Source: Pseudidiomarina planktonica (GTDB taxonomy: Bacteria > Pseudomonadota > Gammaproteobacteria > Enterobacterales > Alteromonadaceae). Taken from it: 64,000 nt of DNA. The position numbers and the translations under genes are program-made. The stretch spans positions 1-64,000 of the forward strand of contig NZ_FXWH01000004.1 of the NCBI RefSeq assembly GCF_900177775.1, written 5' to 3'. Below, piece by piece: positions 24,253-27,297 of the stretch (positions are counted from its first letter, which is position 1; the number at the start of each line of letters is the position of its first letter). Under the pieces are notes generated by a model. That model did not search any database and was not told the DNA's origin. It saw only the letters and a list, made by a program, of their open reading frames with translations.

Positions 24253-25452
24253 TTAATGTTTTGCCGCATAAGCTTCGTTCGCACGCCACACCCGGATCAG
24301 GTTCTGACCGAGGATTTTTTCGATATCAGTGTCAGAGTAACCACGGTCCAATAAACCTTGCACCAGATTCGGATAGCTAGACACGTCTTTCAAACCAATT
24401 GGTAAGGAGTCACCCACACCGTCGTAGTCTGAGCCAATACCAACGTAATCAATACCAACCAGCTCAACCACATGATCAATATGATCAAGTACGGTATTCA
24501 AATCAGCAAAAGGATAAGGGTTGGAAGCACGAATTTCCGCAATCTTAGCTTCGGCTGCGTCAGTGCCCTCGCCCAACTCTTCATTAACGGCTGCAATACG
24601 CTTACGCAGCATGTCACCAAACTGATTGGCACGCTCGGTTACAAACGAAGAACCGAAGTTAATCATGATAACGCCTTCGTTTTCGGCCAGCGCTTTGATC
24701 ATTTCATCGCTCATGTTGCGCTCAAAACCCGGCGTGTAACGACGTAGTGACGAATGCGAGGCTAATGCCGGCGCTTCACTGATTTCCATAACCTGGAAAA
24801 ACGCGTCATCGGAGATGTGAGAAACATCAACCATCACGCCGACTTTGTTCATTTCTTTTACCAGAGTTTTACCAAAGTCACTGAGGCCGTTCCACTGCCG
24901 ACGAATGTCGTATGAAGAATCAGAGATATGATTAGATTCAGAATGCGCTAACGTAATGTAGCGAATACCGCGGTTGTAGAATTCGTAGAGATTTTCCAGC
25001 TTACCTTCAATAGGCGAGCCATTTTCCATACCCAGGGCCAGCGAAATAACGCCACGCTCTTGCTGTTGCAATGCTTGGTCAACTGAGTATGCCATGGCGA
25101 ATTTGTGTGGCGCACGAGTCGCCAGTGCTTCCATGCTATCAATAAGCTGATGAGCCAGTTGATAACTGCCGCCGGTACGTTCCAGCGCCGCTGGAATATA
25201 AATAGACATAAAAGGAACGTTCAACCCGCCTTCTTTGGCGCGCGGATAATCGAAATCACCATTCGCGGTAGCCCGGGTAACGTCTTCCCATTTATTGTTT
25301 AATCGGTAGGGAACGTCAATGTGGGTATCAACAACTAAATACTTTTGTGCCAGTTCTTGTGCTTTAGCAGAGGCTTCTATTGGTTCCGCTGCGGTTGCTG
25401 CCGTGGTTGCAAAGAATGCACCCATCAGGCCAACTAAAATACTTTTCTTCAC
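24253..25452 (-). CDS. Exported membrane dipeptidase (M19 family)
   Basis: Zinc-dependent dipeptidase, 399 residues. I choose the GTG at 25452 because AAGGA lies 7 bases before it and the product then starts with a clean signal peptide (MKKSILVGLMGAFFATTAATA region). ATG codons further upstream lack a ribosome site. VVDTHIDVP carries the HxD zinc ligands, and GVMVDVSHISD, SHSSLRRY and GIGSDYDGV are M19 motifs. The product is probably periplasmic and cleaves dipeptides. No terminator is seen between its stop and the S10 promoter. Confidence 0.9.
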   Translation of the reverse strand: MKKSILVGLMGAFFATTAATAAEPIEASAKAQELAQKYLVVDTHIDVPYRLNNKWEDVTRATANGDFDYPRAKEGGLNVPFMSIYIPAALERTGGSYQLAHQLIDSMEALATRAPHKFAMAYSVDQALQQQERGVISLALGMENGSPIEGKLENLYEFYNRGIRYITLAHSESNHISDSSYDIRRQWNGLSDFGKTLVKEMNKVGVMVDVSHISDDAFFQVMEISEAPALASHSSLRRYTPGFERNMSDEMIKALAENEGVIMINFGSSFVTERANQFGDMLRKRIAAVNEELGEGTDAAEAKIAEIRASNPYPFADLNTVLDHIDHVVELVGIDYVGIGSDYDGVGDSLPIGLKDVSSYPNLVQGLLDRGYSDTDIEKILGQNLIRVWRANEAYAAKH

Positions 25453-25532
25453 TGTTACTTCCTTCATTAGCATGCTGAGGAAGCAGCAGATTAGCACAGT
25501 AGTCTAGCGCAGGTCACGCCCTTACCAGTGCG

Positions 25533-25640
25533 CTAAAAATGACTCTTAAGTGAAGTAAAGGTTACTACAGCACCGGCGACTACGGTTCCTACCACCGGTG
25601 CTAATATAGCTAACACTGTCAGTATGATAAATGAAGTCAT
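25533..25640 (-). CDS. Predicted 35-residue membrane peptide
   Basis: A short reading frame starting MTSFIILTVLAILAPVVGTV and ending SLKSHF: one hydrophobic helix with a short basic tail. AGGGTGGA precedes the ATG. It begins 19 bases after the stop of the 88-residue exported protein on the same strand, suggesting a two-gene unit. The DNA also holds a 7-bp inverted repeat (GCACCGG / CCGGTGC) inside the frame, so a structured RNA rather than a peptide is an alternative. Not recognised. Confidence 0.5.
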   Translation of the reverse strand: MTSFIILTVLAILAPVVGTVVAGAVVTFTSLKSHF

Positions 25641-25659
25641 GCTTCCACCCTGATGTTAA

Positions 25660-25926
25660 TTACTCGCTTACACCAGGGGTGCGCTTGGTTACTACAGTAG
25701 TAGCTAACTGAGCTTCTTCAGTAGGCTGATACCATTGCACAATAGTTTCTTGTAATGCGTTTTTTGCGCTGGTTACGCTGTCAGCAGTTACAGCTGCTAC
25801 TTGTACGGTAATGGCAGTAGCAATGTCACTCAGAATAGATTGCTTAGTAACAACTTCGTTGGCGTTGCTGGTTGCAGTAAAGCTCATCAATATCAGGGCT
25901 GCTGCAGTAGTGGTAATGGCTTTCAT
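25660..25926 (-). CDS. Small exported protein, function unknown
   Basis: 88 residues. The start at 25926 has GAAGGAG 7-8 bases before it. An earlier ATG at 25983 would add 19 residues with no ribosome site. A signal peptide (MKAITTTAAALILMSFTATSNA) leaves about 66 mature residues: Val/Ala/Thr-rich, helical looking, no cysteines. I recognise no domain. It probably shares a transcript with the 35-residue peptide. The upstream DNA contains a short palindrome ATGACAGTCAT. Confidence 0.75.
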   Translation of the reverse strand: MKAITTTAAALILMSFTATSNANEVVTKQSILSDIATAITVQVAAVTADSVTSAKNALQETIVQWYQPTEEAQLATTVVTKRTPGVSE

Positions 25927-26117
25927 GGTAAATCTCCTTCGCTTGGGTTGAGGTTCATGCAGTATCGAATTGATGACTGTCATGCCGTTTTAGTCGAAGG
26001 AGTTAATACAAAGGTTGTGCCAATGCCGCAAAGTGAATTTAAGTTATTGTTTTAAAATAACTTTTATACTCACCAACAATGGCAGGCTAAGTTTAGCGAG
26101 ATGTTGCGATAGTGTTT

Positions 26118-27182
26118 TTAACCACTGTTTTTAGCAAATTCCGCTATTTTTTCGTCAGCTTTTAACATGGCTTCCTGCACCGCCTCAAACGCCCCCCAAA
26201 GCAAAGCTTCAGGGCTGCTAGCCTGAGGTCCGTTCTGACTTAAATACTGGCGCCAACGCTTGGCACCGGGCAAGCCCTGAAACAAACCAAGCATGTGCCG
26301 CGCTACGTGCCAACAACGGCCGCCGGCAGCAACATGAGCAGTGGTGTATGCCACCATAGTTTCAATCACCTGAGCACGCTCAATGCTGCGATTTGGCTGC
26401 TGCATAAAATTATCAAACTCGGTCAATAGCCAGGGATTTTGGTAGGCTTCCCGGCCAATCATCACGCCATCAACAAAAGGCTGATGTTGCGCCACTTCGG
26501 CCATAGTTTTTACGCCGCCATTAAGCGTAATATGTAATTCGGGGCGGCGTTGCTTGGCGCGGTAAACACGCTCGTATTGCAATGGTGGAATTTCACGATT
26601 TTGTTTGGGGCTTAAGCCCTTTAACCAGGCTTTTCTGGCATGCAGGGTAAAGTGTTCACAACCAGCATCTGCAACCGTATCAATAAAGGTATCTAAAAAC
26701 TCATCGCTATCGTGATCGTCAATACCAAGCCGCGTCTTTACACTCACGCGCAGGCCCGTTGCCGCCCTAATTGCTTTCACGCCAGCCGCCACCAGCTCCG
26801 GCTCTGCCATTAAGCAGGCACCAAAACTACCGTTTTGAACCCGGTCCGACGGGCAACCAACATTAATATTCACTTCCTGATAACCGCGCTGCTGGGCCAA
26901 TACGGCACTTTTAGCCAAAGCTTCGGCATCACTACCACCTAGCTGTAACACCAGCGGCTGCTCATGTGGATGGAATGCCAAAAAGTCGCCTTTACCGTAA
27001 ATCAACGCGCCGGTAGTCACCATTTCGGTGTATAGCACAGTATGCTGACTTAACTGCCGATGAAAGTAGCGGCAATGCCTATCGGTCCAGTCCAGCATTG
27101 GTGCCACTGATAATACAAAATTATCAGATGCGGGTTTTGTCGGTGCTGTGGTAGACGATGGTTCGGAACTTAATTGGGACAT
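26118..27182 (-). CDS. dusA: tRNA-dihydrouridine(20/20a) synthase DusA
   Basis: FMN-dependent enzyme that reduces U20/U20a in the tRNA D loop. The N-terminal block SVAPMLDWTDRHCRYFHR and the catalytic cysteine in NVGCPSDRV are visible, and the TIM-barrel phosphate site GVMIGREAYQNPW is intact. The reading frame is open to 27248. I take the ATG at 27182 (354 residues) because the residues before it look non-conserved, but no strong ribosome site marks either choice. It is divergent from zur with a 115-base gap. Confidence 0.92.
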   Translation of the reverse strand: MSQLSSEPSSTTAPTKPASDNFVLSVAPMLDWTDRHCRYFHRQLSQHTVLYTEMVTTGALIYGKGDFLAFHPHEQPLVLQLGGSDAEALAKSAVLAQQRGYQEVNINVGCPSDRVQNGSFGACLMAEPELVAAGVKAIRAATGLRVSVKTRLGIDDHDSDEFLDTFIDTVADAGCEHFTLHARKAWLKGLSPKQNREIPPLQYERVYRAKQRRPELHITLNGGVKTMAEVAQHQPFVDGVMIGREAYQNPWLLTEFDNFMQQPNRSIERAQVIETMVAYTTAHVAAGGRCWHVARHMLGLFQGLPGAKRWRQYLSQNGPQASSPEALLWGAFEAVQEAMLKADEKIAEFAKNSG

Positions 27183-27297
27183 GATAACAACCAGTTTGCG
27201 GGATCTTAAAAAGCCGAAGCTCTGTACAACTGCATAGTCTACGATCACTGGCAGCTTCAGTCTATGCGATTATGATTTGCCGTGGTAAACTTCAATA

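Follow-up and report, generated by a model that had tools for sequence, protein, structure and literature searches.

Two small genes after dusA in Pseudidiomarina are candidate phage-shock effectors in the position of pspG

The pair and its surroundings

The window analysed here is a stretch of 64,000 nucleotides (nt) from Pseudidiomarina planktonica (contig NZ_FXWH01000004.1, positions 1 to 64,000), whose genome measures 2.57 Mb in 5 contigs. We studied two small adjacent genes on its minus strand, one for an exported protein of 88 residues and one for a membrane peptide of 35 residues, which follow the tRNA-modification gene dusA and are candidate effectors of the phage-shock protein (Psp) response. 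An earlier note, made from this DNA alone, had described paired small genes with separate ribosome sites; both minus-strand open reading frames (ORFs) exist, and they recur in all 25 loci examined in the genus. The features of the locus are as follows.

25660..25926, minus strand: exported protein of 88 residues, with a signal peptide and one predicted long helix (ORF, synteny, substitution rates, structural model)
25533..25640, minus strand: membrane peptide of 35 residues, single helix with a central proline, P15 (ORF, synteny, substitution rates)
26007..26022, minus strand: sigma-54 promoter TGGCACAACCTTTGTA, 10/11 consensus positions (consensus match)
26132..26156, minus strand: PspF-type enhancer candidate GACGAAAAAATAGCGGAATTTGCTA, within the dusA reading frame (profile of relatives' pspA promoters)
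25995..26002, minus strand: 5' arm of a leader hairpin, CTCCTTCG (fold z)
25934..25941, minus strand: 3' arm of the leader hairpin, CGAAGGAG, over the exported gene's ribosome site (fold z)
26118..27248, minus strand: dusA (TIGR00742 421.8 bits and NF008774 481.1 bits, both above cut-off), whose 3' end contains the enhancer
24253-25497, minus strand: presumed dipeptidase gene, 3' of the pair (ORF; name assumed by us)

Read along the minus strand, dusA is followed by a 191-nt gap, the 88-residue gene, the 35-residue gene and the gene at 24253-25497, which we take to encode an M19 dipeptidase and for which an NCBIfam scan gave nothing at E 0.01. The first small ORF starts with an ATG at 25926, ends at 25660 and has an AAGGAG ribosome site upstream; the second (25640-25533) is preceded by a weaker, GGTGGA-like site. 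An Rfam scan of the window gave two matches, neither of them at the pair.

Conservation within the genus

Loci of relatives were reached through the dipeptidase, which is matched in 25 of the 26 Pseudidiomarina genomes; the 26th (88% complete, 280 contigs) gave no dipeptidase match and stands outside the 25-locus count. Both ORFs lie at the same position, between dusA and the dipeptidase gene, in every one of the 25 loci, which takes the pair beyond chance, and we regard it as practically certain that these are real genes. With the starts chosen, the exported protein spans 83-101 residues and the peptide 35-41. The peptide is the better conserved of the two, with a mean column identity of 53% and two invariant columns, P15 and V16. 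The ratio of non-synonymous to synonymous substitution rates (dN/dS) was computed for 22 loci in seven close groups, 15 from the genus and 7 from Idiomarina. It is 0.03-0.26 for the peptide in all seven groups and 0.04-0.39 for the exported protein in six, the seventh being undefined through saturation. These values indicate that both genes are under purifying selection. The earlier note had left it to relatives to decide whether the 35-codon frame is conserved at the protein level: the frame is kept, and its dN/dS is low.

Searches with a single sequence matched the peptide in 18 of the 26 genus genomes at E 1, and the 88-residue protein in 3 of 59 genomes at E 0.01, namely itself, a true orthologue in G025 and a chance match with an in-frame stop in G005. 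The same kind of search with the 88-residue protein in a collection of genome contigs found no relative. The gene looks like an orphan in such searches because its sequence is too diverged for them, and we rejected that status, since synteny reveals the gene in 25/25 genus loci.

A sigma-54 promoter in front of the pair

The element TGGCAC-N5-TTGC starts 51-99 nt upstream of the exported gene in 25/25 genus loci (in L028 it is tied with a second site). In the gap between dusA and the gene, nine loci have a best sigma-54 score of 11/11, 15 loci one of 10 and a single locus one of 9; a score of 10 was reached in 0.24% of Markov-resampled gaps and a score of 9 in 3.4%. The -24/-12 promoter expected of a PspF regulon member is thus found at 10/11 in the window and at 10 or higher in 24 of the 25 gaps of the genus. 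A sigma-70-type scan gave one site against 1.2 expected.

The first 14 letters of TGGCACAACCTTTGTA occur exactly once in the window genome, and a copy with a single mismatch lies upstream of a fliE-like gene behind an FlrC-like regulator (names by reading). Allowing up to one mismatch, the 14-mer is found at 2 places in the genome and a reversed control pattern at 3; as the control finds more places, we discarded this genome-wide count as promoter evidence.

A PspF-type enhancer at the end of dusA

The enhancer profile was derived from the conserved element around TGACTAATTATTAGTGTATTTGATAA in the pspA promoters of 25 relatives, with the window's own pspA site excluded. Scored against synonymous recodings, the last 75 nt of dusA are enriched for it in the genus (mean z 2.09, p<=0.05 in 17/25 loci), and five other 75-nt segments of dusA, taken as controls, give z -0.25 to 0.15 with 0 to 3 loci at p<=0.05. 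The copy in the window, GACGAAAAAATAGCGGAATTTGCTA, has p=0.020 against 200 synonymous recodings. The upstream enhancer expected under PspF control is therefore present at the level of the genus. The regulator itself is encoded in the window genome (TIGR02974 557.7 bits, cut-off 443.55), with pspF divergent from pspA, pspB and pspC (the last two named by reading), and the pspA protein is matched in 26/26 genus genomes.

Outside Pseudidiomarina and Idiomarina the enhancer tends to sit elsewhere. Among 80 named loci, the end of dusA is enriched in a group of nine (eight Pseudidiomarina/Idiomarina and one Colwellia, L157; mean z 1.61) and not in 23 pspG-bearing loci (z -0.18) or in the other 48 (z 0.35), which include some non-Alteromonadales, among them L208 with pspG. 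In 82 loci of other genera (L101-L229), each with a sigma-54 site of at least 10/11, the enhancer usually lies further downstream: the stretch running from 190 to 40 nt before the sigma-54 site has a mean z of 1.63, with 32 of the 82 loci above 2, as against a mean of 0.01 and 4 loci for a control stretch. Of 40 top-scoring matches, 36 start 99-135 nt upstream of the sigma-54 site. The best match to the profile in E. coli K-12, CACCAAAAAGTAGTCAAATTCACCA, starts five bases past the dusA stop (score 7.5, runner-up -5.7) and is closely similar to the site at the dusA end of relative G009, ATTTCACCAAAAAGTAGCGGAATACGCC. An excerpt of a study by genomic SELEX (systematic evolution of ligands by exponential enrichment) places the E. 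coli dusA/pspG spacer among the targets of the RpoN holoenzyme (PMC8743547).

On contig 3 the window genome carries a second PspA-like gene (L043:256-2855; TIGR02977 234 bits, slightly below cut-off) with a sigma-54 site of its own, TGGCACGTGACTTGAA, at 10/11. It is followed on its 3' side by genes for a hydrophobic protein of 101 residues (no Pfam match) and for copper-chaperone-like and DUF2333-like proteins (by reading), and this is perhaps a second sigma-54 psp operon.

The two products

By reading of its sequence, the 88-residue product carries a Sec-type signal peptide whose end is AxA-like, likely SNA/NE, and the 35-residue product, MTSFIILTVLAILAPVVGTVVAGAVVTFTSLKSHF, has a single hydrophobic stretch, in keeping with the secreted protein and one-helix peptide that had been described from the DNA. 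That no family is recognised also holds: Pfam and NCBIfam scans placed neither product in a family above cut-off, and a panel of 14 exported relatives yielded merely weak, single-member matches in the same databases. The predicted model of the exported protein is one helix, residues 22-66, of moderate confidence (predicted local distance difference test, pLDDT, 77-91 across residues 31-70 and 66.7 on average; predicted template modelling score, pTM, 0.37), and a fold search of the model against the PDB gave no match (best E 6.5). Mature exported proteins lack cysteine in 88/88 cases and show a helical amphipathic signal at 90-98 degrees, with a mean z of 1.0-1.2 in the genus and 1.5-1.7 elsewhere.

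All 88 peptides counted have a proline within residues 9-24. Three automatic picks were dropped from this count, those of L120 (no peptide), the second copy of L122 and L145 (wrong ORF); the correct peptides of the L122 second copy and of L145 likewise carry a central proline. Residues 2-12 are free of K and R in all 84 distinct peptides, and K/R after residue 26 number 2.0 per peptide on average (none in 7 of the 84). Applied to this distribution, the positive-inside rule gives a peptide that is probably oriented N-out/C-in.

Since pairwise profile comparison of the exported clades was weak (E 0.0007 to 0.26, with one of 15 reversed controls at 0.003), a leave-one-clade-out test was used. Over the mature exported parts of six clades (87 sequences; the signal-peptide cut leaves some signal residues), held-out medians were 6.5-13.3 bits, against -0.3 to 1.0 for shuffled and 0.6 to 5.8 bits for reversed controls; in both comparisons two Shewanella sequences were cut at 100 residues. 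The peptide profiles of different clades match at E 1.4e-6 to 4.9e-6 in three of six pairs and weakly in the other three (E 0.0011, 0.019 and 0.07), reversed controls being at 0.0028 or weaker. These similarities argue that the exported gene and the peptide each form one family across clades.

Relatives in other genera

A peptide profile search matched 31 of 295 genomes of the family: 15 belong to the genus, 10 to a sister genus and one (G113) to a third, and the other five look like chance matches, four of which were inspected (L097-L100). The sister genus is Idiomarina, because L091 and L092 have exported sequences identical to those of the named Idiomarina loci L155 and L156. Nine of the ten Idiomarina loci from the profile have both genes, and in G113 a PspC-like ORF and the gene for a DUF2333 protein come after the pair.

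We then considered the region after dusA in 48 genomes of 42 other genera, together with the 80 named loci. In the 48-genome set the sigma-54 score within 1.2 kb is at least 10 in 40 genomes and 9 in five, with no such site in three. The automatic locus rules required a sigma-54 site of at least 9/11, so that the sigma-54 rate among automatically counted loci is no evidence. These rules found the exported gene, the peptide or both in 41/48 and 31/79 loci (both genes in 30 and 22), and they undercount, L105, L111 and L128 carrying an exported-type ORF by eye; L177 (too short) and L149 (a repeat of L096) are excluded from the 127 loci. The 79-locus set has pspG in 24 loci and neither pspG nor the pair genes in another 24. 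By the same rules, pspG occurs together with either pair gene in 0/127 loci; it was called with a profile of 11 sequences from these loci, and Pfam confirmed the two that were scanned. A PspA or PspC gene is found no more than 2.9 kb from dusA in 35/41 and 23/31 loci with a pair gene and in 0/24 pspG loci.

The arrangement varies. The exported gene stands immediately upstream of pspA in L103, L142 and L143, the peptide is the first recognised gene past the promoter in L117, L159 and L163, and the pair is duplicated in L113 and L122 with a sigma-54 site at each copy. Across Alteromonadales, relatives of the two genes are widespread after dusA, in many cases close to pspA or a mini-pspC.

Other loci after dusA deserve mention. 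L122 has three tandem exported-type genes (L122:349-1932, reverse strand coordinates), the first two each with a peptide gene and a sigma-54 site. In the Pseudoalteromonas loci L184, L193, L214 and L216, where the pair is not recognised, a divergent PspA-like gene (MALIDRIED...) stands behind a sigma-54-like site straight after dusA, and we take it as another filling of the pspG slot. Near dusA, the loci L102, L116, L145, L209, L213 and L225 encode proteins of about 63-68 residues with a PspC domain; they are far below the 121-position length of the TIGR02978 model, and PF04024 confirmed those of L102 and L209. One relative has a perfect 7-nt tandem repeat (GTTGCTT, 17 copies; L031:1254-1375) 3' of the dipeptidase gene, with the appearance of a fast-evolving repeat.

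A leader hairpin in Pseudidiomarina

In the predicted fold of the Pseudidiomarina leader, the exported gene's ribosome site is base-paired to a CTCCT-type arm close to where transcription is predicted to start. The window leader has a fold z of -4.5, none of 200 shuffles being equally stable, and a z of merely -1.9 in the genus-set run with its 50-sample null. Mean z is -2.0 in the genus (a set that L028 entered with the wrong promoter), -0.6 in nine Idiomarina loci and -0.3 in others; we rejected the hairpin outside the genus, single cases such as L094 and L125 apart. At the variable arm positions 6-9, with fixed anchors, pairing holds in 66/100 cells, whereas 5000 arm permutations average 51.4 and never exceed 63; the permutation ignores kinship, and the window's row is offset by one base, to the detriment of the result. 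By masking the first ribosome site, the hairpin would add translational gating or mRNA stability in Pseudidiomarina.

Comparison with PspG and other known systems

The slot after dusA is occupied by pspG in Vibrio, Erwinia and E. coli. No pspG was found above the Pfam cut-off in any of the 26 genus genomes, the E. coli control being positive. The pair resembles PspG (PF09583 / TIGR02975, E. coli pspG) in lying directly 3' of dusA behind a sigma-54-like promoter and in specifying a small inner-membrane product, and in E. coli the enhancer-profile site adjoins dusA as well. It differs in size and topology, PspG having about 70-90 residues (69-92 in the loci examined) and two predicted membrane helices, whereas the peptide has 35 residues and one hydrophobic helix with a central proline; the pair also has an exported partner, which pspG loci lack. 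Neither the window peptide nor two of its relatives matches PF09583 or TIGR02975, and peptide profiles compare with PspG at E 0.067-0.22, no better than with reversed PspG. We therefore rejected the peptide as a PspG homologue, given the lack of a profile match, half the size, the single helix and the mid-helix proline. Excerpts of earlier work present PspG as an effector with two predicted membrane helices (PMC2763126) and describe its role as not fully understood (PMC9239133).

With the PspA-PspB-PspC core the pair shares its regulatory logic and, among its relatives, the proximity of PspA and PspC genes, whereas neither product resembles PspA, PspB or PspC in the family search. YohP, a stress-induced membrane micropeptide of E. 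coli, is also below 50 residues, membrane-bound and linked to stress; we set it beside the peptide by description only. In the excerpt available of a Shewanella oneidensis study, pspF is among the genes induced by arcA deletion (PMC2262068). The excerpted text of one Psp survey makes no mention of Shewanella, Alteromonad, Vibrio or "small protein" (PMC9239133), and that of another none of PspG, dusA, Shewanella, Alteromonad or "small protein" (PMC11237479). Among the matches listed from the open-licence literature, no title or abstract beginning describes the pair; an earlier description may exist, for example in a regulon database.

Discussion

We interpret the pair as effectors of the Psp inner-membrane stress response, with a probability of roughly three in four, because a sigma-54 promoter lies 3' of dusA, an enhancer lies further up and pspF is present in the same genome. 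On this regulatory evidence, control by PspF and sigma-54 is very likely. The pair would thus belong to the PspF regulon as effectors that occupy the pspG slot, one a periplasmic helix and the other an inner-membrane micropeptide, with strong support for the regulation and a biochemical action that we infer. The earlier note had likened the genes to small envelope-stress or toxin-like pairs. The first likeness is strengthened by the sigma-54 promoter, the PspF-type enhancer, the pspG slot and the frequent pspA/pspC neighbours in relatives; genus-wide synteny and regulation lend the second no support.

Under inner-membrane stress, PspA would release PspF, which would activate the sigma-54 polymerase so that the pair is made. 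The first product would be exported and act as an amphipathic helix in the periplasm, and the second would insert in the inner membrane as a proline-kinked helix. Together they may stabilise the stressed membrane in its core and at its outer face, with PspA on the cytoplasmic face, and so fill the role of PspG without homology to it. We propose this mechanism tentatively, at slightly less than even odds as worded; the pair could act by supporting the membrane, by signalling to PspB/PspC or by helping PspA.

Several observations weigh against the Psp interpretation. At the promoter, the -12 element of the window reads TTTGTA, with GT replacing GC. A longer enhancer profile from an earlier scan, which included the window's own pspA site and used a different null, gave mixed results, the window copy not being significant (p=0.33), and the enrichment at the end of dusA is restricted to Pseudidiomarina/Idiomarina. 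Within Pseudidiomarina the pair is followed by the dipeptidase and not by psp genes, and the window alone in the genus has no PspA-linked evidence of its own close to the pair. The exported protein is poorly conserved (mean column identity 33% over the genus loci), and Idiomarina L088 has the peptide without an exported ORF. Finally, pspA in the window genome has a degenerate promoter (L042:5675-5930), with a best sigma-54 score of 8/11 where 25 relatives have 9-10; an enhancer-like element is retained upstream of this pspA, which may have been rewired in the window's lineage.

This degenerate promoter is also a reason to consider that another enhancer-binding protein drives the sigma-54 promoter and that the pair belongs to a different response. 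Sigma-54 has several activators, and the sole one-mismatch copy of the promoter 14-mer is the one before the fliE-like gene behind the FlrC-like regulator. However, a profile derived from pspA promoters is enriched at the pair both in Pseudidiomarina and in further genera, it picks out a site at dusA-pspG of E. coli, and psp genes stand beside the pair's relatives; we consider another activator unlikely.

Less likely by some way is a toxin-like pair, in which the hydrophobic peptide would damage the membrane and its partner restrain it. Small hydrophobic peptides can be toxic, and the two genes are duplicated together in L113 and L122. Yet the pair keeps a fixed chromosomal place in 25/25 genus loci behind a stress-type promoter, several loci have the peptide but no exported gene after the promoter (e.g., L088, L117, L163), and others have the exported gene but no peptide before pspA (e.g., L142, L143). 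Pfam and NCBIfam scans of both products gave no match to a toxin-antitoxin family.

A similarly small, marginally lower chance goes to the pair being part of a dipeptidase operon with a function in peptide metabolism. The genes are on the same strand, about 80 bp apart, in an arrangement kept in Pseudidiomarina and Idiomarina, no terminator-like site was found in the stretch scanned, and the dipeptidase also follows dusA in L110 (with the exported gene only) and L185 (with no pair). L185 also counts against it, retaining the dipeptidase without the pair, and in the other genera examined pspA, mini-pspC, rhodanese or other genes come next while the pair's promoter is retained. That the 35-codon stretch encodes no peptide but forms a structured RNA we rejected on dN/dS as scarcely credible, for the frame is open in 25/25 loci and similar between clades at the protein level, and the one conserved RNA structure found, the hairpin, belongs to the leader of the first gene instead.

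Beyond the effector interpretation itself, we lean towards the proposal that Alteromonadales have a branch of the Psp response not described for enterobacteria. In it, a two-gene module after dusA, specifying a stress-induced periplasmic helix and a proline-kinked inner-membrane micropeptide, would replace PspG by unrelated proteins in the same ancestral promoter/enhancer slot and give Psp an outer-face arm, hairpin-gated in Pseudidiomarina. The module points to two protein families, one of them with lengths of about 32-60 residues; the members tested had no match in Pfam or NCBIfam. It would also illustrate clearly how non-homologous proteins can take over a regulatory slot that is itself conserved, here with an enhancer that lies within the coding sequence of a tRNA-modification gene. 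If many marine bacteria do retain the promoter and enhancer while two unrelated small proteins fill the slot, this asks which property matters: a small membrane-inserted helix, a periplasmic partner, or both.
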